Notes under the pieces: generated by a model | Databases searched by the model: none | What the model was told of the DNA's origin: nothing | Seen by the model: the letters and a program-made list of their open reading frames with translations, nothing else | Assembly (NCBI GenBank): GCA_026390735.1 | Contig: JAPLFJ010000028.1 | Coordinates: 1 to 46,660, forward strand | From: Ignavibacteriota bacterium | GTDB taxonomy: Bacteria > Bacteroidota > Ignavibacteria > Tepidaquicellales > Tepidaquicellaceae | Reading direction: 5' to 3' | Length of the DNA: 46,660 nucleotides | Position numbers and translations under genes: made by a program | Shown here: positions 18,251-31,892 of the stretch, piece after piece | Numbering within the stretch: the first letter of the stretch is position 1 | How the letters are laid out: every line of letters starts with the position of its first letter

Positions 18251-18994
18251 GTGAGCAAATACAATTATAAGTTAACGATTGAATACGACGGTAGTGATTA
18301 TTGCGGATGGCAGAGACAAAAAAGATTCAGGAATTCTATACAGGAAGTAATTGAAACAGGTTTAGAGAAGTTGCTTAAAGAAGAAATTAAGATTACAGGC
18401 GCCGGCAGGACAGATGCCGGCGTTCATGCTTATAATCAGACTGCTAACTTTAAGACAGACATCAAAATAGAAAATGTTGATAAGTTTTTGTATTCAGTTA
18501 ATTCCATCATACCAAAATCTATCACTATAAAATCTATAAAGAAAGTTAAGGACGATTTTCATTCTAGGTATTCAGCTAAGAAAAGAGAATATATATACAG
18601 GATAGTTACGAAAGATATTTCGATCGGAAGAAAATACTATCACAAATTAAATTACAAACTTGACTTTAAAATTATAGATGAATTTATTAAAATACTAAAA
18701 GGTTACAAGTCATACAGGTCGTTATGCAAGAATACCGAAGATAAGCATAATTTCTGCTGTGAAATGAAGAGTATAACGTACAGGCAAAACAAGAAAGAAG
18801 GAACCATAGAATTTAAGTTAGTTGCAGACAGGTATTTGCACTCCATGGTAAGGGCTTTAACAGGAACGTTGATAGACCTTGGAAGGAACAGAATAGGAAT
18901 AAAAGACACAATAACAAAATTTAACAGAGGAGAAAAAATCAAGGCTACATATCTACCTGCAAATGCATTATTTTTAAACAAAATCTACTATTAA
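18251..18994 (+). CDS. truA: tRNA pseudouridine(38-40) synthase TruA
   Basis: TruA isomerises uridines at positions 38-40 in the anticodon stem-loop of many tRNAs. The 247-aa protein contains the catalytic motif GAGRTDAGVHA with nucleophile Asp55, the N-terminal EYDGSDYCGWQRQ, and the C-terminal VRALTGTLIDLGR segment of the family. Length is normal. It starts with GTG at 18251, only 4 bases after the previous stop, and its TAA shares a base with the ATG of the next gene (TAATG), implying translational coupling. Confidence 0.96.
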   Translation: MSKYNYKLTIEYDGSDYCGWQRQKRFRNSIQEVIETGLEKLLKEEIKITGAGRTDAGVHAYNQTANFKTDIKIENVDKFLYSVNSIIPKSITIKSIKKVKDDFHSRYSAKKREYIYRIVTKDISIGRKYYHKLNYKLDFKIIDEFIKILKGYKSYRSLCKNTEDKHNFCCEMKSITYRQNKKEGTIEFKLVADRYLHSMVRALTGTLIDLGRNRIGIKDTITKFNRGEKIKATYLPANALFLNKIYY

Positions 18995-19884
18995 TGAAGA
19001 AAACAATAATTTTAATAACCATAGCATTATTTTCAGTTACCTGTACAAACCTGAAAGCACAGGACTTACCTGATAATCAGGCGAAAACCGATAAGAGCAA
19101 TTCTTACCTGAACATCAAGAGCAAACTGATTGATAAAGAACTCAATACTCAGGATTTAAATCTTAGGATATCAGATGTGGATTCAAGTAAACTAAAGAGT
19201 CCGATACTCGGTGCTGTTCTTTCAGCTGTTATCCCGGGTGCAGGTCAGTTTTACGGTAAGAACTATATTAAGACAGGAATATTTCTTGCGGTAGAAGCAG
19301 GGCTATGGGTTGTGTACGCAGTTTTTCAGGGTAAAGGTAATGACCAGACAACAACTTATCAGAACTATGCAAACGGAAACTGGGATATGAGAAGATATGC
19401 ACAATGGTTAAAAGACCAGTCATTTACAGGTTCACCCGGTATAGATATGAATTCAAATGACGTTACATTAAGGGCACAGATTAACGCCTGTGAAAGTGCA
19501 AGCGGATTTTCACATCAGTTACCCCCTCCCGGAGACCAGCAGTATTACGAAGTAATCGGTAAATATCAGACTTATATTGCCGGATGGTCAAGTGCAGTAG
19601 GACAGAATATTAATAAAACAAACTATGAGACTTATCATTTAACACAGGTAAGCGACTATATGGATTCAAGACAAACTGCCAATGACTATTACAACAAAGG
19701 TACAACAACTTTGATGGTAGTTCTGTTGAACCACCTTGCCTCAGCCGTGGATGGAGTTCTCACAGTAAACTCATACAACAATAAATACGTACTAAAGGGC
19801 GGCGTGAGTTTTGCCCCGATATATTCATACAAACTCGACAGAGCCGTCATCACACCTTTTGCTAATGTAAGTTTTACATTTTAA
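18994..19884 (+). CDS. Exported/membrane protein with PGAGQFYGK motif, paralogue of the gene before truA
   Basis: A 296-aa protein with a signal peptide (lipobox-like Cys17 at VTCTN is present, but cleavage after KAQ at about residue 23 is equally possible). The core SPILGAVLSAVIPGAGQFYG and a hydrophobic helix (GIFLAVEAGLWVVYAVF) match the arrangement of the gene at 17506, and both end in a hydrophobic segment (TLMVVLLNHLASAVDGVLT) plus a short beta-rich tail. The C-terminal residues PFANVSFTF resemble an outer-membrane terminal strand. It overlaps the truA stop by one base and precedes cdd by 3 bases. Function unknown. Confidence 0.75.
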   Translation: MKKTIILITIALFSVTCTNLKAQDLPDNQAKTDKSNSYLNIKSKLIDKELNTQDLNLRISDVDSSKLKSPILGAVLSAVIPGAGQFYGKNYIKTGIFLAVEAGLWVVYAVFQGKGNDQTTTYQNYANGNWDMRRYAQWLKDQSFTGSPGIDMNSNDVTLRAQINACESASGFSHQLPPPGDQQYYEVIGKYQTYIAGWSSAVGQNINKTNYETYHLTQVSDYMDSRQTANDYYNKGTTTLMVVLLNHLASAVDGVLTVNSYNNKYVLKGGVSFAPIYSYKLDRAVITPFANVSFTF

Positions 19885-21981: not shown

Positions 21982-24900
21982 CTACTGAATAGTTACTCTG
22001 ACGTTCAAACCACCTTCATTAGTAGTTCTTGGCTGTGTGGTAGCATTACCAGCAGTCGGTTCGGATTTACTGTATTTGTAGAACACCATTAACTGAACCT
22101 TTGAACTCAAAGAATAAGAAACAGAAGGATTGAATGATGTTACGGTAGAACCTGCACCGTCCAGTTTTTCCTTTCCTAAGAGCGGAGTAAACCTCCAATC
22201 AATAGGCTGGTTGACGTTCTTCGAGATTGTAAGCGAGAATGTAATATCATTTTTTAGTGAAAGACCGAAAAGAGGAATATCAAAACCTGATTTAGCATAG
22301 TTAGCGGTAAGGCTCCAGTCGCTTGTTTTATTTTCCTGAATTAAATTACTCGAAGGAGTAAGGATATTACTCGTAGAAGAATTAATCCTTAAATTCGCAG
22401 TCATATTGCCGCCGAATATAGGTTTGAAAGTAACGTTCAGTCCTATCAGAGGATTAAATGACTGAGTAACAGACTGTCTCTGTATAACAACCTGATTGGA
22501 TGCATCATTAAAGGATGCTTCTGAATACTCTGAAGTAAATGTATTTTCAATCGACACTGTTGAAGCAAACTCCGAGAACAAGGGCAGTTTTTCCAATCCT
22601 GACACTGTAAGGTTCCAGTTCGGGAACGGGAATGAAGCAAGACTGCTCTTAAAAGCCGAAGTAATATTCGTAACATTATCAAAGGCATTATCCGAAGGTG
22701 AGAAATTAAAATTATCCATATTGCCTGCAAAGAACATACTGTATCCGTCAGTTTTATTACTGCTTCTGTTTACTGCAGCACCCAGAGCACCGGACTCCTC
22801 AGTAACGAATGTCCCTGAATTATTAAATCCCCACAACTTCTTAAACGACAGATTCATCCTGATATTCTGCGGCAATATAGGAGATATAGTTGTATTAAAC
22901 GTTACATTATTTGAAAGATTATAGACATCTGTTATGTTAAGATATGGCACACGCTTACCCGGGTATCTGTCTAACCCAAGTTGATACATTCTGGACGGTC
23001 CATACTCCTCAACAGTCTTTAAAGCCAGCCAGAAATTACCCAGTCCGGGACGACCTATAACACCAGGGTTAACAACAGAGTTAGTCTGATTGAAATTAAC
23101 CGAAATCAAATCAGGAATAAAAGTCCCGAGAACTTTCATTATATCACCAAACTTTATTTTATCATCAAACTCACTTGCAGCATTTAATCTGTTCGGAATA
23201 TTCCTGTACCCGCTTGAATTTTTCGGTATACCAAAAGTATTTAAAATTTCATTGAATTTAAACGTGGCACCTGTAGTAAAAGTGTTAGCAAAACCAACGT
23301 TATACCCGATATTTTGTGTTGAGTTTGGGTTAGTCCATGCATAGGTAACATTATAATTCATGTTAACATCCAGAAACTTATTAATAACAGGAATATTAAA
23401 CTTAGGATTAAAAGTAGTTGACTGCTGGAAATCCAGGTCTTTACCGAAATTTATCAGGCCTTCGTTAAGGAAGATATCGCTAAGAACCTGCTTCTCGGTT
23501 CTTTGTGTCCTCAAAGAATCCTTGTTAGTTTCATAATCAGTAAGGTCAGACCCGATTTTAAAATTATAAGTTCCTGTCATATCTACAATCCAGTTTTCAA
23601 TAAACTTCCAGTTAAAGCCGAACCCCCTGTTTGCCCTGAACAGTCTGCTGACAGGGTCATCCTGCAGAAGCAGTCTTTGCTTTGATTCATTATGAGTTCT
23701 CGTGAAATCCATAGAGGCATTAAAGTTTGAACTGAATGCAGGCACGAAAGGAATTAACGGGAAGAACAGATAAATCTTCGCATCCTTATACTGTTCACCG
23801 AGGTTCACAAGATTATTCAGATGCAGATTAAGAATTTCCGATAATCTGAAATCAGTATTATAGTTTAAACTACCGTTGACGTTATAGTCAGATTTATTTT
23901 CAAAAGTAAAATCTCTCTGCGAGCCGAAAGAGCCTGAGAAATTAACAGAGAAAGCATTCAAAACTGTTCTTGTGACAATATTATTTCCCGGGAATTTGAA
24001 TGCCATACCAGTAACGGAAATATCATTTCTTACGATTAAGGTTTGAGTAGACTTAATAAAATCCTCTCTGGATTTCGTAGCAAAAGCAGGATCATTTGTT
24101 TTAGCAAGAACCTGTTTATACTTTTCATCTGCGGCGCTTTCCAGGTCGATATCAGAGCCAGGATAATATTTCGGATTAATCATACTCTCGCTATGCCTGA
24201 AAGTTACAGGAAAGTTCAGGAAATCTTTCCATTCAGGAGAGAGAACAGACGCGAGGAAATTATTAACCAGTTTATGCGCGTTAACTGATAATCCCATATC
24301 CCAGTTCTGGCCTGTATTACGTGAACCGGCACGCGTATCCAGTGAGTGGAAATTAGGATCTATTTTAGACATATTAAAACTCAAGTTAGCAAAGTCTGCA
24401 ATTTTAAGACTTGTGTTAACGTTATAAGCATAGCCGTTATCGTCATTTACTTTCAGAACACGGACTTCGTTAAACCATACGCTTCCTGAAATAGTAGAAT
24501 TCATACCTGAACGGTTTTTCTCAACACCGAGAGTAAATTCACGTATAGCATTCAAAGCCGGAGTCCCCCTTACCCTGTAGTACGAACCAGGAGGACCATT
24601 AGGGACAGGCATATCAACAACCTGATTAGCAGAGTCACGTGATATTTTCAGACTCGTTAGATCAGAGAACACAATAGAGACCTCATTTAATGAATTCCAT
24701 GGCTGTCCAGGGCGAACGTCGGGATGTATAGGAGCCCTGTACTCATAAAAATTTGTAGAGTCAGAGCCAAACCTTACAACCATTGTAGCATCATAAATAT
24801 ACTGATTTGTGTAATTAAAACTCGGATCACCGTTAACGAACAGTTTCATCATTTTATAATTAAACAAATCAAGAATCTGGCTTCTGTAATCTTTTACTGC

Positions 24901-27900
24901 AATCTTCTGCTGACCTACGACTAAGTTATTGAATGAAAGAGCAAGAGACTGTTCGTTTGATTTTGTATTAACACCATTTGTATTACGGACAGTCTGTCTT
25001 AAAATATCACCCGCAACGGGACTCATATAAATCTGTGAATTTTCTTCAATACTTACTACAGAGATATTATAAGTTGTATCGATTTTATTTGGTTTAAACC
25101 ACTGGTTACCAACTAAGTTAAAATCAATAAGTCCAAGTCTTACTTTGCCATCAAGACCTTTAATCCAGACTCTTACATATCTAACGTTGTTCAAAGTTGC
25201 AACCTGGTCACCGATACTTTGCTTGAATTCAGAAAGAGGTATTCTGTACTGGAACCAACCGCTACCCGGAGCACCGCGTCCTGAAATCATTTTATTGTTT
25301 GTTGTATCAAGACTAACATAATACTCATAATACTTATTCGCCTTATCGAGAACACCGTTACCGTCAAGGTCTTCAGTATCAGGGCGGCTGAATCCTTCAA
25401 TCGACCTGTTATTTTCCGTACCGTTAACAAGGTCGATATTAATAATATTAGAGTTTGAGTTATTATCACCAGCAGGGTCAACACTACCGCCGTGAGTCGC
25501 GGAATATGTGGGCATATCATAATTAGTACCGTTTTTAGCATTATAAAGGGCCAACTCTTCAACGTCGTATAAAAAATCAAGACCCCTGTCTTCAAAGGGA
25601 TTCTGGTCCTGCAAAGTACCATTATTGTTAAAGTCTTCAGTATTAAGTGTACCGTTTGGAATAGCGTCTTCAGAAATAAGACCAAGATCGACATACAGTT
25701 TCGCATTCTGCAGACCAACATTATCATAGTTTTCAATTCTCATATTGAATTCTATGAAATTAATATTTTCATTAATAAGGTCAGGTGAAGTAGTATTCAT
25801 ATACTTCATAATACCGTTCCATTTGGTTTGGCGGTTGCTCAGTGTATCGAACCCAATTTCCTTATAGTTGTAAGTACCGCGCTTTGATGGATCGAAATTC
25901 ATATAGAAAGGCGAGAGCCTGTCCTGCCCTGCCTGTACGTCCCTTAACGGATATACAGCCTTAACTTCAACATCATTCGGAAGAGTGTACCACTTAAGAC
26001 TTGCTCTTCTGTCCTGCATTATGGAATCAGCAACAGGAGGAAAAAGCACAGGAACCGAAGAGATTGACCAGGACTGATAATTTGTTCCGAGAGAAATAAT
26101 TTTCTTAGCACCTTCCATATCATCGATGTAGGCAATAGCCTCATTATTATCGGAAGGGATAGCACTCTTTTTAGTATTCGGGTCAGGAGTTAAATAAGCA
26201 ATTTCACCTCTCAGCGACAGAATAGATTCTTCTTTTGTATTAAATCCCGGTAGAAGGTTTATAGCTTTGGTCAGGAAATTTGGTTTAAACTCAGTTGTAA
26301 GGTCAGCACCGAACATAGAGTTATTCGTAGGTTCCTCACCTATTCTCACTTTGTCGTTAAGTGTTTCCTGAACAAGGTTAACGAAAGTAAATCCAAGGTT
26401 AGTTTTATCGTTAATTTTATAGTCACCTCTGAGACCTATAAAAGTCTTGGAAGCAAGAGAAAACAAATCATTAGACTCATATGTAATTCTAAGGTCTTTG
26501 GAAGTAAGAGCAGCACCATTCCTGATAATAACAACACCTGTTGTATAATCACAGGAATAATCTACATTTTCAGTAAGTTTACTTTGTCCGAGGAAAACAG
26601 CCACACTACCCTGAACAACATTCAGTCCAAGGTTGAATGAATTACTGATACCGGATTCACCTTTTGCGCTTCCTTTAATTACATAGAGGTTAGCCTTAGG
26701 TGATTGCTGGGAATTAGTTTTCTTTTGAGTGTATATTTCAGTGAACTGGTACGTAGTATCTGCACCTGCAATTCTTATGTTATCAGAAAACGGTCTCAGG
26801 TTCGGGAATATGATATCACCTGATTCAGTGAGTATAGTTCTACCAGTTAAAAAATCAAAGACACCATCGGGTGCAAACTTTGTATTCTTACCTGCGTACC
26901 TGTCGATATTTAAAATAGTAGAAAGCGATAAACTGTTATTTAAGTTAAGGATATTCTTCTGATAAACGTTATTATTGTTGTACAACGCATCCAGAACAAA
27001 ACCATCTTCCATAATTCTTGAAACAGGAAGCCGGTAAATATTCTTCATTTTCAGCTCCCAGGCAAGAGGAGTTAAAACAGGGTCGGGAGTATCAACTTTA
27101 ATTAATTTCAGAATAAGCGTATCATTACCATTTGACTCACCAGCCCTGGTACCTTTACCGTAGATCTCGTCCTGATATGTATTATAAACCACACCAACAT
27201 AATAGGTTTCCGGAACACTTAGTTTCAGACTGACAAATCCTGCAAATTCATCTACACGATATTCATTCTCTTCAAGTTTTCTGAAATAACCTGCAAATTT
27301 ATCACCAATAACTGAAACAGGATTTTTGATAGAATCAGGATAACCAGCAACAGGGCGGGGGCCCAGCATTACTTTACCGACTGCGAATCTTTTTTTAGAT
27401 TCCGTAACCTGACACTGAATCCAGACTTCAAAATTATTGTTTGCAAGGTTGAGTCTGTTCAGATTAACAGACGGAGAATACTGTTTGCCCAGAGTATCGT
27501 TGTATACTTCATTAAAAGAACTCTTGTATACAGTATCGATAAAATAATGACTGTCGGAATAATCCCAGACACTAATCTGAAAATTCTGATCCTGTACACC
27601 CTGCGAGAATGTTTTTTCTTCCTGCTTACTTTTCTTCTGAGATACGACGGACGATAGAGTTAATGGCCCGAGTTTAAATTCACCACGGATACCGAAAAGT
27701 GCCTGAGTTGACTGAATCAAAGATGACTTCGTATCGAGAGAAACATTACCTGCCTCGATTTTCTGAATAACCTCATCGGCATATCCTGTGTACTTAAGTT
27801 TTAACTGGTTCTCAAAATCAAAGACACGTTGTGTATTCCAGTCGGCATCGATGGTAAGTTTATCTCCGATAGAACCTTTAGCAGTCACCTGTACTTCCTG

Positions 27901-28623
27901 CTTAAAGTTAATATTACTCTGGTTATTGTTAGTAAAAGACAACGAAGTAACATTATTATTCTGATAAGAAGCAGTAATATCGACCGCACCGTTAATCCTG
28001 AGATTAAAAGTAGGCGGACCGAAAATGGTTTCCGTTTTAAACGGCAAAGGAATAGTAATATCCGTAAACTTCTCGAACAATCTGGTTAAATCGTCTGTAG
28101 TAACCCCTTTAAATTTATCAGAAAACAGTTCATAGAATATTTTTTCCCCATTAACCTTAACTTTTTTGTTTAAATAATCATCAAAGCCTATAACGAGCGG
28201 AGCTTTAAAATCCTCCCCATTCACAGTCTGGCGAATGATTACTTTATTGCTATCGCCGAAAGTAATATCTGTTTTAACGTAGGATGAATTTTCAAGGAGC
28301 AGCGGATGTGTTTTTTCCTTAATTTTAGTACCAAAAGTATATTGCGGCTTGTACTGGAAATATTTTATACGGGCTGTAGAATCTACGGGTAAGTATCTGG
28401 TCGAATCATAAGTAATACCCAGGGAATCGGCTAATTTCTTTTTAATAGAATCACTTAACTCATATTTATAATTGGCATAAGTTCCTAAATCTCTTCTCCC
28501 TTGAGAAAAAGTAACATTGCAAATCGTTAAAATAATTGCTATTATTGTCAGAGAAAATATGAATATTCTCTTGACACGGAACTTGTCAGTAAAAGATTTT
28601 GTATTTATAATATTAAAACTCAA
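21982..28623 (-). CDS. sprA: SprA, outer-membrane translocon of type IX secretion
   Basis: SprA (Sov in Porphyromonas) is the very large outer-membrane barrel through which type IX secretion substrates leave the cell. The 2213-aa product has an N-terminal membrane/signal segment ending near residue 41 (VTFSQ), long beta-rich repeats with the SprA/N-terminal plug-like regions (for example QNQNF-type and IDDMEGAKKIISLG around residue 830), and a C-terminal part of aromatic-ending strands terminating in VRVTIQ. IDDMEGA and NPSVSYSLSSKVQ are typical of the family. The frame starts at a TTG (28623) with no nearby alternative, so the exact start is uncertain. No other type IX core genes (gldKLMN, porV) are in the window. 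It is divergent from the 1034-aa fusion protein gene across a 164-bp region. Confidence 0.93.
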   Translation of the reverse strand: MSFNIINTKSFTDKFRVKRIFIFSLTIIAIILTICNVTFSQGRRDLGTYANYKYELSDSIKKKLADSLGITYDSTRYLPVDSTARIKYFQYKPQYTFGTKIKEKTHPLLLENSSYVKTDITFGDSNKVIIRQTVNGEDFKAPLVIGFDDYLNKKVKVNGEKIFYELFSDKFKGVTTDDLTRLFEKFTDITIPLPFKTETIFGPPTFNLRINGAVDITASYQNNNVTSLSFTNNNQSNINFKQEVQVTAKGSIGDKLTIDADWNTQRVFDFENQLKLKYTGYADEVIQKIEAGNVSLDTKSSLIQSTQALFGIRGEFKLGPLTLSSVVSQKKSKQEEKTFSQGVQDQNFQISVWDYSDSHYFIDTVYKSSFNEVYNDTLGKQYSPSVNLNRLNLANNNFEVWIQCQVTESKKRFAVGKVMLGPRPVAGYPDSIKNPVSVIGDKFAGYFRKLEENEYRVDEFAGFVSLKLSVPETYYVGVVYNTYQDEIYGKGTRAGESNGNDTLILKLIKVDTPDPVLTPLAWELKMKNIYRLPVSRIMEDGFVLDALYNNNNVYQKNILNLNNSLSLSTILNIDRYAGKNTKFAPDGVFDFLTGRTILTESGDIIFPNLRPFSDNIRIAGADTTYQFTEIYTQKKTNSQQSPKANLYVIKGSAKGESGISNSFNLGLNVVQGSVAVFLGQSKLTENVDYSCDYTTGVVIIRNGAALTSKDLRITYESNDLFSLASKTFIGLRGDYKINDKTNLGFTFVNLVQETLNDKVRIGEEPTNNSMFGADLTTEFKPNFLTKAINLLPGFNTKEESILSLRGEIAYLTPDPNTKKSAIPSDNNEAIAYIDDMEGAKKIISLGTNYQSWSISSVPVLFPPVADSIMQDRRASLKWYTLPNDVEVKAVYPLRDVQAGQDRLSPFYMNFDPSKRGTYNYKEIGFDTLSNRQTKWNGIMKYMNTTSPDLINENINFIEFNMRIENYDNVGLQNAKLYVDLGLISEDAIPNGTLNTEDFNNNGTLQDQNPFEDRGLDFLYDVEELALYNAKNGTNYDMPTYSATHGGSVDPAGDNNSNSNIINIDLVNGTENNRSIEGFSRPDTEDLDGNGVLDKANKYYEYYVSLDTTNNKMISGRGAPGSGWFQYRIPLSEFKQSIGDQVATLNNVRYVRVWIKGLDGKVRLGLIDFNLVGNQWFKPNKIDTTYNISVVSIEENSQIYMSPVAGDILRQTVRNTNGVNTKSNEQSLALSFNNLVVGQQKIAVKDYRSQILDLFNYKMMKLFVNGDPSFNYTNQYIYDATMVVRFGSDSTNFYEYRAPIHPDVRPGQPWNSLNEVSIVFSDLTSLKISRDSANQVVDMPVPNGPPGSYYRVRGTPALNAIREFTLGVEKNRSGMNSTISGSVWFNEVRVLKVNDDNGYAYNVNTSLKIADFANLSFNMSKIDPNFHSLDTRAGSRNTGQNWDMGLSVNAHKLVNNFLASVLSPEWKDFLNFPVTFRHSESMINPKYYPGSDIDLESAADEKYKQVLAKTNDPAFATKSREDFIKSTQTLIVRNDISVTGMAFKFPGNNIVTRTVLNAFSVNFSGSFGSQRDFTFENKSDYNVNGSLNYNTDFRLSEILNLHLNNLVNLGEQYKDAKIYLFFPLIPFVPAFSSNFNASMDFTRTHNESKQRLLLQDDPVSRLFRANRGFGFNWKFIENWIVDMTGTYNFKIGSDLTDYETNKDSLRTQRTEKQVLSDIFLNEGLINFGKDLDFQQSTTFNPKFNIPVINKFLDVNMNYNVTYAWTNPNSTQNIGYNVGFANTFTTGATFKFNEILNTFGIPKNSSGYRNIPNRLNAASEFDDKIKFGDIMKVLGTFIPDLISVNFNQTNSVVNPGVIGRPGLGNFWLALKTVEEYGPSRMYQLGLDRYPGKRVPYLNITDVYNLSNNVTFNTTISPILPQNIRMNLSFKKLWGFNNSGTFVTEESGALGAAVNRSSNKTDGYSMFFAGNMDNFNFSPSDNAFDNVTNITSAFKSSLASFPFPNWNLTVSGLEKLPLFSEFASTVSIENTFTSEYSEASFNDASNQVVIQRQSVTQSFNPLIGLNVTFKPIFGGNMTANLRINSSTSNILTPSSNLIQENKTSDWSLTANYAKSGFDIPLFGLSLKNDITFSLTISKNVNQPIDWRFTPLLGKEKLDGAGSTVTSFNPSVSYSLSSKVQLMVFYKYSKSEPTAGNATTQPRTTNEGGLNVRVTIQ

Positions 28624-28787: not shown

Positions 28788-31700
28788 ATGATTAATAGAC
28801 GGGAAAAATTTTCGCTCTTTAGTATTACATTAGTTATAATAAGTATTATAGCTAACTTAGCCACAGCACAGTTTGAATCACACCCTGAACAGGACTGGTT
28901 TACGATAGAAACAAAGCATTTCACAGTTTCATATCACACAGGTGCCGAAAGAACTGCTCAGGTAATTGCAAAGATTGCGGAAGAAGTTTACGGACCGATA
29001 ACAGACCTATACCAGTTTCCATTAAAAGACAAAGTGAACTTTGTAGTTAACGACCTATCTGACATAGCAAACGGAGCAACTGACTATTACGGCAACAGAA
29101 TTGAGATATTTGCCTCAGCACTTGATTTTGAATTCAGGGGTACACATAACTGGCTCAGAAACGTGATAACACACGAATTCACTCATATGGTGCAAATACA
29201 GGCATCATTGAAAATGTCGAAGAATATGCCCGCTATTTATCTTCAATGGATTAATTATGAGAACGAAAGAAGACCCGATGTGCTTTACGGTTATCCGAAT
29301 GTTATAGTTTCCTACCCAATCTCAGGAGTTGGAGTTCCTGCATGGTTTGCAGAAGGTGTAGCACAGTATCAGAGACAGCAAATGGGTTACGATTACTGGG
29401 ATGCCAACAGGGATATGATATTGAGAAGTTACGTAATGGATGACAATATGCTGACCTGGAATGAAATGGGACAGTTTTCTTCCATCACAAGTTTAAAAGC
29501 TGAATCGATTTACAACTCAGGATTTGCGTTATCGCAGTACATTGCGAAAACGTACGGTGAAGATAAGTTGAAAATGATAACTAAGAGCCTTGGAAACTTC
29601 ACAAATTTCAGTGTTGATAAGGCGATAAAAGTACACCTTGGAAAAGACGGACCGGATTTGTACAATGAATGGAAAGCATTTTTACAGAAAGACTATGGTG
29701 ACAGAATTGCGGATGTGAAGAAAACCCAGATGGACGGCGAGATTATTCAGTTAGACGGGTTTGCAAACTTCTACCCCAAGTTTTCACCTGATGGTAAAAA
29801 AATTGCATATCTCTCGAACGGGACTTACGATTACGGAACGACAGTACTGATAGTTTACGACATAGCGACAAAGAAAGTTGAAAGCATTGATGCACCTGTG
29901 GCTTCCAATTATTCATGGTCTGCGGACGGGAAGAAATTAATTTATGCAAAGAGAAATTCTCCCCCAACGATTGGCGAGGCAGTATTATTCGATATTTACG
30001 AATATGATATAGCCACTAAAAAAGATAAAAGACTTTCAGAGGAATTGAGAGCATTCTCCCCTTCATACTCACCCGATGCGAGTAAAATAGTTTACATCAG
30101 CGGCAGAGACGGAACGCTTAATTTATACACAGCAGACAAAGATTTAAAGAACAGGAAGCAGATAACATTCTTCAGCAATGGAGAACAGATATACAATCCT
30201 ATCTTTGCTCCAGACGGGAAGACAATAGTATTCGATTTCTCGCTTATAGAAGCAAGAAAAATAGCAAAAGTAGATGCTGAGACTGGAAATATGGAATTCA
30301 TATTCGACAAAGAGAACATAGACTACAGAACACCTGTGATTACAAAAGACGGGGATAAGATGTTTTTCTCATCGAACGAGACAGGAATTTTCAACGTATA
30401 CTCATACGATTTCAAAACAAAAGATATAAAGCAGGTAACGAACGTACTTGGCGGAGCATTCATGCCGACGATTGATGACAACGGGAATATTGCATATACT
30501 TCTTATAAATCGACAGGTTTCAAGATTGCATACCTGAAAGGATTCAGTGAAAAAACAAAGAGTGAATACGGGCAGTACAAAGCACCTGACAAACTTGTAG
30601 CAAGATACAGCAGTGATACAACAAGCAACAAGTTCGGATGGAACGGGTTAAAGAATTTTAACGACAAAGAATACAAGAATCTTGAGAGCAAGAATTACAA
30701 GAGCATATTCAATCAGTTATCTATCTTTCCTGTACTGAGGTTTGACAATTACACAAAGAACAACAACATACTTGATGCGATAAAGCCCGGGGTGTATTTA
30801 TACTCGGATGAATTAATGACAAGGTTTTCCATATTCGGAGGATTTGCGATTAACAGAAAAGCAGAACGTGACATATTTATGCAATTCACTTACAACAACG
30901 GCTTCCCTGTAGGGCAGAAGTTCCTTGCTAAGAATTTAAGTTTTGACCCAAAGTTCACTTTATCAGGTTACAACGTCACGCGTAAGTCAGATGCACAGTT
31001 ATACGCAGGTGTGGATACTTTAAGCGTAGGAGTTGCATATGATTTACTCGAGTTCGAACTTGCTATGGATTTTAAACTGATAAACTACAATCACGACTTC
31101 AGGATAACGTACGGAATATCAAAATACGCATCGAGCATCGATAACTTTTATTTACCTAGCAGCGGAATAACTGCAAGAGCTTCTTCACAGGATTATTTTA
31201 AAGCACAGAGAATAACATTTGATTACAAATATGAAAGAGGATACCATAACAAAAACTCGGACATTAATCCTGCAGGAAGAAAAGTTAATCTGAGATATGA
31301 ATATGAAGCGAGTAAAATAAACCCTGAAATTGCAGTAGACGAGCAGGGCAACGTATCGACTGTATTCACAGCCAACAACCTTCACAAATTCGAAGGGACA
31401 TGGGTAGAGGGATTGTATGTATTCAGGAATCATTCAATCAACCTAAAACTGAGGGGTGCAGGAATACTCGGTAAACCTGTTGACAGTTTCTATGATTTTT
31501 ACGCAGGTGGTTTGATTGGTATGAGAGGATATCCTTATTTCTCGATGGGTGGCGGCAGAGTGGCACACGCAAACTTAACATACAGATTCCCATTGATATC
31601 GAAGATAGACACACGTATATCTCCGTTGTACCTTGATAAGTTATACCTGTCATTATTCGGTGACATAGGTAATGCATGGAACGGAACAGCTCCGGGACTG

Positions 31701-31892
31701 AACGAATTCAAAAAAGACGTCGGTTTTGAACTGAGACTTCAGGCATTTTCATCGTACGTATTCCCAACCAGCATATTCTTCAGTGCGGCATACGGATCAG
31801 ATAGTTTTACGAAAAGATTTTCAGGAAAAGATGTAACATACGGAAAAGAAATGATATATTACTTCGGAATGTTATTCGGATTCGACATTTAG
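28788..31892 (+). CDS. Exported fusion: HEFTH metalloprotease-like domain, TolB-type propeller, Omp85-like barrel
   Basis: A 1034-aa exported protein (signal peptide to about residue 27, ATAQ). Domains in order: a gluzincin/peptidase-MA-like region with the zinc motif HEFTH at 129-133 and a downstream Glu189 (AWFAEG) as the likely third ligand; about six PD40/TolB beta-propeller blades (about 330-600), each with the motif 'FSPDGKKIAY' or a variant; and a C-terminal beta-barrel (about 650-1034) containing an Omp85-like MRGYP motif at 912-916 and ending in a strand (YYFGMLFGFDI). It therefore looks like an outer-membrane surface protein with a periplasmic protease/propeller part. Catalytic residues are intact, so activity is plausible but unproven. 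It is divergent from sprA and followed by a terminator. Confidence 0.85.
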   Translation: MINRREKFSLFSITLVIISIIANLATAQFESHPEQDWFTIETKHFTVSYHTGAERTAQVIAKIAEEVYGPITDLYQFPLKDKVNFVVNDLSDIANGATDYYGNRIEIFASALDFEFRGTHNWLRNVITHEFTHMVQIQASLKMSKNMPAIYLQWINYENERRPDVLYGYPNVIVSYPISGVGVPAWFAEGVAQYQRQQMGYDYWDANRDMILRSYVMDDNMLTWNEMGQFSSITSLKAESIYNSGFALSQYIAKTYGEDKLKMITKSLGNFTNFSVDKAIKVHLGKDGPDLYNEWKAFLQKDYGDRIADVKKTQMDGEIIQLDGFANFYPKFSPDGKKIAYLSNGTYDYGTTVLIVYDIATKKVESIDAPVASNYSWSADGKKLIYAKRNSPPTIGEAVLFDIYEYDIATKKDKRLSEELRAFSPSYSPDASKIVYISGRDGTLNLYTADKDLKNRKQITFFSNGEQIYNPIFAPDGKTIVFDFSLIEARKIAKVDAETGNMEFIFDKENIDYRTPVITKDGDKMFFSSNETGIFNVYSYDFKTKDIKQVTNVLGGAFMPTIDDNGNIAYTSYKSTGFKIAYLKGFSEKTKSEYGQYKAPDKLVARYSSDTTSNKFGWNGLKNFNDKEYKNLESKNYKSIFNQLSIFPVLRFDNYTKNNNILDAIKPGVYLYSDELMTRFSIFGGFAINRKAERDIFMQFTYNNGFPVGQKFLAKNLSFDPKFTLSGYNVTRKSDAQLYAGVDTLSVGVAYDLLEFELAMDFKLINYNHDFRITYGISKYASSIDNFYLPSSGITARASSQDYFKAQRITFDYKYERGYHNKNSDINPAGRKVNLRYEYEASKINPEIAVDEQGNVSTVFTANNLHKFEGTWVEGLYVFRNHSINLKLRGAGILGKPVDSFYDFYAGGLIGMRGYPYFSMGGGRVAHANLTYRFPLISKIDTRISPLYLDKLYLSLFGDIGNAWNGTAPGLNEFKKDVGFELRLQAFSSYVFPTSIFFSAAYGSDSFTKRFSGKDVTYGKEMIYYFGMLFGFDI

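Follow-up and report, generated by a model that had tools for sequence, protein, structure and literature searches.

The open reading frame (ORF) at 28788-31892 on the forward strand of a 46,660-nucleotide stretch from an Ignavibacteriota bacterium (contig JAPLFJ010000028.1 of assembly GCA_026390735.1, analysed whole and hereafter the window) joins a zinc-protease motif, a TolB-type propeller and an Omp85-type barrel in one exported chain. In a 296-genome sample of the phylum the gene is present and absent together with the gene for M6i, an inactivated metalloprotease, and always with SprA, the translocon of the type IX secretion system (T9SS); in other lineages it is found in an operon with porU, porV, M6i and a DUF5683 gene. 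Its product is probably a T9SS-linked outer-membrane protease that works with M6i, and we favour, somewhat more cautiously, the fuller reading of a two-gene T9SS accessory module, in which it is the active protease, tethered to the outer membrane, and M6i is its partner. Study gene and study protein hereafter denote this ORF and its orthologues.

The study gene is an intact ORF that occupies exactly 28788-31892 (+), starts with ATG, encodes 1034 residues and, at full length, is single-copy in its genome. Judged from sequence alone, a peptidase part of ~280 residues is followed by the propeller, a linker of ~50 residues and a barrel of ~395 residues. The features of the chain are as follows.

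28788..31892 (+), whole study gene: signal peptide, Peptidase_MA_2 (gluzincin) domain, TolB-type propeller and Omp85-type barrel (ORF, Pfam, profile comparison, propeller fold comparison)
28788..28868 (+), probable Sec signal peptide, aa 1-27, read by eye, with a putative cleavage site between ATA and Gln28
28869..29717 (+), peptidase domain, ~aa 28-310, boundaries approximate (PF13485, profile comparison with paralogues, conservation)
29172..29186 (+), HEFTH, aa 129-133, the HExxH zinc motif (93/93 orthologues)
29256..29297 (+), YENERRPDVLYGYP, aa 157-170, centre of an insert that separates the active-site helix from the helix bearing the Glu (alignment columns, pattern count, profile alignment)
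29337..29357 (+), PAWFAEG, aa 184-190, in which E189 is the expected third zinc ligand (83/83 rows, 10/10 further orthologues)
29718..30557 (+), TolB-type (PD40) propeller, ~aa 311-590 (Pfam, AlphaFold, fold comparison)
30705..31889 (+), Omp85-type barrel, ~aa 640-1034 (hhalign against PF01103/BamA-type and paralogue barrels)
31521..31535 (+), MRGYP, aa 912-916, corresponding to the Omp85 loop-6 motif, which is relaxed in the family (alignment columns, profile alignment)

Orthologues were aligned in 83 rows, being the study protein and 82 distinct orthologues of 36-88% identity, and ten more were examined outside this alignment (93 in total); ORF calling followed a plain longest-ORF rule. The nearest named matches, in a genome-contig search that yielded five loci only, came from Ignavibacteria/Ignavibacteriae metagenome-assembled genomes, the top one at 88% identity. 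Viral contigs gave pattern matches only and no relative of the study protein, none of the 26 plasmid records, mostly TolB genes, covered 80% of the query, and a profile search of solved structures matched TolB and other propellers, with no peptidase or Omp85 chain. A lipobox Cys is absent: the study protein has no Cys at all, and LxxC occurs in the first 40 residues of only 2/83 rows.

Peptidase_MA_2 (PF13485) matches the study protein at 33.8 bits (Pfam cut-off 32.4) and 15/15 members at E up to 1, at least one of them, L067, lying just under the cut-off at 31.4 bits. A profile of the peptidase part, which is the best conserved portion of the chain, matches the paralogues with a probability of 99.9%. 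H129, E130 and H133 are kept in all 82 rows with letters at these positions and E189 in 83/83; the single gapped row (L083), an artefact of the start-codon rule, does contain HEFTH when read from the contig. HExxH and the downstream Glu are kept in all ten further orthologues as well, hence the zinc motif is intact in 93/93, and the first His and the Glu are spaced by 60 in 82/82 and 10/10 orthologues. Conservation of this kind argues for a working active site. In the insert, columns R162, D164, L166, Y167, G168 and P170 are each kept in at least 97% of the 83 rows and Y157 is nearly invariant. The exact pattern RRPDxLYGxP occurs in 63/83 orthologues and in none of the paralogues examined, and the insert is missing, as a gap in the profile alignment, from L115, a paralogue in the same genome.

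For the propeller, Pfam PD40 scores 75.5 bits over four stretches. It is the sole confident part of the AlphaFold model, with block values of the predicted local distance difference test (pLDDT) mostly at 75-90. TolB structures are its best fold matches (Z 23-25, identity 20-23% or slightly less), and aa 336-589 align to TolB (3iax) with Z 25.4 over 242 residues at a root mean square deviation of 2.8. The fold comparison list obtained with the propeller model contains neither a peptidase nor a barrel among its matches, and no fold search was made with the peptidase or the barrel because their models were too weak. The study protein shares the propeller fold of TolB (Z 25) and differs from it in being part of a membrane protein and in scoring 118.4 bits against the TolB equivalog TIGR02800, far under the cut-off of 343.

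The barrel profile matches the PF01103-matched proteins of relatives, mostly of BamA length, with a probability of 92.6% (E 4.6e-7); control profiles in the same comparison gave 0.5% (PorV), 0.2% (PorU) and 0.1% (SprA). It also matches the paralogue barrels (96.2%), which in turn match the PF01103 set (96.1%), and paralogous ORFs of ~1079 residues in relatives exceed the Pfam Omp85 cut-off. MRGYP, to be compared with the Omp85 consensus (V/L)RG(F/Y), aligns onto the LRGY loop-6 motif of PF01103 proteins of BamA length. A preliminary description of the window, made from its letters, had proposed a protease-like domain, a TolB-type propeller and an Omp85-type barrel in one chain, and Pfam, fold comparison and profile comparison bear this out. 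So does conservation for the intact HEFTH and downstream Glu it described, the Glu being E189; variation of the HEFTH residues among homologues, which it had named as counter-evidence, was not seen in any of the 93.

The genomic distribution was scored in the 296 genomes, an even sample of the phylum, at E up to 1e-90 for the study gene and up to 1e-100 for M6i. The next best scores, ~1e-28 and ~1e-13, are far off, so the presence cuts fall in a gap. The study gene occurs in 115/296 genomes and M6i in the same 115, with no genome carrying either alone; M6i matches exceed the curated cut-off in 110 of these and stay under it in five. SprA is found in 115/115 carriers of the pair; another 113 genomes carry SprA and neither gene of the pair. 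M6i lies within 3 kb of the study gene in 100/115 genomes, at a median gap of 75.5 bp. Bacteroidia-like families without M6i in the sample have no study-gene orthologue, and even within genera the pair is patchy (g112 of family f34: both genes in two genomes and neither in four; g113 of f42: one with both, one with neither). On a PorV tree of 54 rows, from which L188 (its PorU and PorV hidden by the longest-ORF rule) and L175, L177 and L190 (no PorV shown) were left out, pair presence needs six changes, four of them forced by well-supported branches, and 0/500 shuffles came as low. With at least 4-6 switches between presence and absence, the agreement is not one historical accident. PorZ served as a control: PorZ_N (PF21544) is present in 105/115 pair genomes versus 86/113 SprA genomes without the pair, and the idea that the pair replaces PorZ was rejected on these counts.

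This pattern makes it very improbable that the study protein is a bystander, that is, a general-use envelope protease merely riding in the porU operon. A wider family of similar proteins outside the operon, including L115, would fit such a bystander, yet presence equals that of M6i in 296/296 genomes, all carriers have SprA, and the study gene and M6i have changed jointly several times independently on the PorV tree.

M6i is a named NCBIfam family, 'T9SS-dependent M6-like inactivated metalloprotease', and curators thus know it; the open-licence literature searched yielded no paper on it. HExxH is absent from M6i in 29/29 cases and, among a further 12 (L172 being a gene already counted), is seen in one, L165, at residue 139, where surroundings unlike an M6 site suggest a chance occurrence. 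In both M6i members scanned a type A sorting domain scores above its Pfam cut-off, and a C-terminus resembling a sorting domain, read by eye, is kept by M6i in operons that lack PorU. An apparently dead, exported protease beside an invariant and presumably live one invites the reading of M6i as partner, regulator or substrate.

Since its sorting domain implies that M6i should end outside the cell, an extracellular partnership fits: the barrel would present peptidase and propeller on the surface, where protease and M6i would act on secreted or foreign proteins. PlpD and other patatin-Omp85 proteins have been suggested to display a domain in this way (Heinz and Lithgow 2014, PMC4104836), yet the same article places the domains before the first strand in the periplasm in BamA, TamA and FhaC. 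TolB is itself periplasmic, and the study protein has no Por_Secre_tail match (Pfam, NCBIfam) and so no recognised T9SS sorting domain. We regard surface display as unlikely, though not negligible, and keep to a tethered protease facing the periplasm.

The operon was characterized from 40 loci of orthologues in other genomes, 20 outside the class and 20 inside it. The recurrent order, co-directional and often overlapping, is porU-porV-M6i-study gene-DUF5683, with a PorU-type gene as neighbour in 29 loci, PorV in 27, M6i in 29 and DUF5683 in 28. DUF5683 is a Pfam name; the other three were named by NCBIfam, at 897 bits for PorU (cut-off 420), 258 for PorV (250), and 990 and 1219 for M6i (600). 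Of the 29 loci that have M6i and the study gene on one strand, 11 show a 1- or 4-bp overlap between the two, and in seven the study gene overlaps DUF5683 by exactly 4 bp. At two loci, L092 and L095, sprA is found a few kb further on as well. The pair-less genome G052 (L174) has porU, porV and DUF5683 together with both genes missing between them, which shows that DUF5683 belongs to the porU operon independently of the pair.

Eleven further operons were fetched, ten for apparent absence of PorZ or PorU and one as control. Nine of them run PorV-M6i-study gene-DUF5683, the stretch fetched containing no PorU; PorU is present in the other two. Two of the nine genomes, G133 and G322, gave no PorU match genome-wide at E up to 1e-100, in a search that covered 59 relatives and 30 chosen genomes only. 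The pair is therefore not bound to the sortase, and its step would lie on the translocation or shuttle side and not in PorU-PorZ surface attachment. These same operons are what favour a second sorting peptidase that would cut C-terminal sorting domains from some T9SS cargo, either alongside PorU or in its place. We hold this to be most unlikely: PorU is over its cut-off in 59/59 relatives, with or without the study gene, the active site would need an outside location, and no result connects its specificity with sorting domains.

The nine operons without PorU all come from family f34 (L163-L169, L171 and L172; genomes G160, G171, G221, G252, G284, G315, G113, G133 and G322), and most of these genomes also have no PorZ match. 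The set may represent SprA-bearing bacteria that have lost surface attachment.

Another explanation starts from the Omp85-type barrel, from the operon with porV and from a position beside sprA in one family. The study protein would then be an assembly factor, an Omp85-type insertase for T9SS outer-membrane proteins such as SprA and PorV, with the protease clearing stalled barrels as BepA does on the β-barrel assembly machinery (BAM). BepA and other M48 proteases are indeed linked to outer-membrane protein biogenesis (PMC13067283). Against this, the 113 sample genomes with SprA and without the study gene indicate that SprA assembly is possible without it, M6i and not SprA or PorV is its tightest partner, and the loop-6 Arg is often Lys. 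An assembly factor therefore seems to us rather improbable.

For the protease partnered by M6i, the following course of events can be envisaged. BAM would insert the barrel of the study protein, and propeller and peptidase would stay periplasmic, as do the N-terminal domains of the Omp85 proteins that have been studied. The propeller might dock M6i or a T9SS client beside PorV and SprA, and the gluzincin site would trim or remove clients, thereby maturing, or controlling the quality of, T9SS cargo bound for SprA. The dead protease M6i would serve as a dedicated partner, be it adaptor, regulator or substrate, and would itself be exported through SprA. The exact step of the study protease in the pathway remains a tentative and rather doubtful assignment. 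We give about even chances to the broadest form of the proposal, namely that an active gluzincin-propeller-Omp85 protease and a T9SS-exported dead M6 protease form an unrecognised, indivisible module in about half of the SprA-bearing genomes, acting at the SprA-PorV end, independently of PorU, as a proteolytic maturation or quality-control arm of the T9SS.

Several observations weigh against this reading. The barrel is placed in the Omp85 superfamily, as a presumed divergent member, by profile-profile comparison: Pfam Omp85 (PF01103/PF19143) has no match in the study protein and matches 1/15 members (E 2.8e-4), and loop 6 departs from BamA in that its Arg is Arg in 35/83 and Lys in 47/83 rows, with the Gly kept in 51/83. 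Full-length AlphaFold modelling from six sequences reached a mean pLDDT of 48.6 with no confident barrel or peptidase, and a crop of the peptidase, again with a six-sequence alignment, did not fold confidently either (43.8). Periplasmic topology would follow by analogy with other Omp85 proteins. The co-occurrence could reflect shared ancestry, the number of independent changes being ~4-6, far fewer than that of genomes, and in 15/115 genomes the study gene is not beside M6i. Two genomes among the 59 nearer relatives break the pattern, both of them draft or incomplete assemblies: G043 (64% complete) has M6i at E 3.7e-110 and no study-gene orthologue, and G042 (6% contamination, 440 contigs) has the study gene and M6i and no SprA match. 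Finally, in the study gene's own genome PorU, PorV and M6i stand together on contig C51, and the study gene has moved to C5.

Parts of this architecture are known. The WD40-Omp85 subfamily of the Omp85/TpsB superfamily shares with the study protein an N-terminal TolB-like propeller, an Omp85 barrel and the lack of POTRA domains, and a platform resembling BamA-BamB was guessed for it (Heinz and Lithgow 2014, PMC4104836). The text on this subfamily, in section 10 of that article, mentions no protease domain and no T9SS link, and by this description sets it apart; the 'Metallo' Omp85 group of the same article is PF00149, a domain other than the peptidase described here. The propeller-Omp85 arrangement was thus already published in 2014, and the protease domain in this architecture, the pairing with M6i and the T9SS link were not found in the open-licence literature searched, including the available text of PMC11285876. 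The translocon study of Lauber et al. adds SprE, PorD and SkpA to SprA, and the word Omp85 was not found in its available text (PMC10994853). With the attachment complex PorU-PorV-PorQ-PorZ the study gene shares an operon through porU and porV; it differs in being no known member, in being kept without PorU in some operons and in a distribution unlike that of PorZ. With Peptidase_MA_2 of the clan MA gluzincins it shares HExxH and a downstream Glu, and it is distinguished by the conserved insert (spacing 60, visibly shorter in paralogues) and by fusion to propeller and barrel. BepA, which carries tetratricopeptide repeats, is a soluble M48 protease whose architecture is not homologous to that of the study protein. 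It resembles the reading favoured here as a zinc protease serving outer-membrane biogenesis (PMC13067283).

Closest in layout are the HELLH-type paralogues (L115, L151-L153, L155, L156, L161 and L162), which have the same order of peptidase, propeller and barrel, an intact HExxH, WxxEG and LRGF/LRGY. They differ from the study protein in lacking the insert, in scoring only ~60-80 bits to it and in that none was seen in the porU operon of the fetched loci. The one in the study gene's own genome (L115:1197-4430 (+), contig C58) has 1077 residues with HELLH, WFSEG and LRGF and lies outside the porU operon. A third branch with HEFTH and WFNEG, of 940-963 residues, occurs at L157:4448-7339 and L158:1674-4496 in class members without the study subfamily (G052, G056).

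Work on the T9SS has centred on a few Bacteroidia, and by present evidence the pair is missing from most reference T9SS models. If the proposal holds, the translocon would have an outer-membrane protease partner unmentioned in the T9SS literature searched, and the study protein would be a second case of a membrane-barrel protein with its own protease. As two adjacent genes that are gained or lost jointly, the protease site being intact in the one and ruined in the other, the pair offers a clean genetic test, and the operons that keep the pair without PorU would part its task from surface attachment.

Two neighbouring genes in the window bear on the T9SS.

21982..28623 (-), sprA (T9SS translocon), divergent neighbour of the study gene (PF14349 SprA_N, 151 bits, cut-off 27)
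18994..19884 (+), DUF5683-like gene, a few genes from sprA (26.3 bits, just under the Pfam cut-off of 26.7), homologous to the gene placed after the study gene in the porU operon elsewhere

The study gene or a fragment of it adjoins sprA in 25/29 genomes of its own family (two being fragments at contig ends), and in the remaining four the two genes are on separate contigs. In the sister family it is beside sprA in 0/15 genomes, two of which have both genes on one contig, ~61 and ~65 kb apart. With the porU operon as the setting in most other lineages sampled, sprA was rejected as a constant neighbour. The preliminary description had drawn a link with type IX secretion from the divergence with sprA and had suggested checking for a general linkage; the link itself stands, on the porU-porV-M6i operon and the co-occurrence with M6i and SprA, and the neighbourhood check shows the adjacency to be a local arrangement. 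The DUF5683-like gene of the window was likewise rejected as a family-wide neighbour, being on another contig or far off in most genomes of the family. At L114:13139-14242 (+), in the study gene's own genome, a 367-residue ORF directly follows M6i, in the slot that the study gene occupies elsewhere. A genome of the study genus carries tandem PorU-type sortase genes, both over the family cut-off, at G002:C4:103961-111787.

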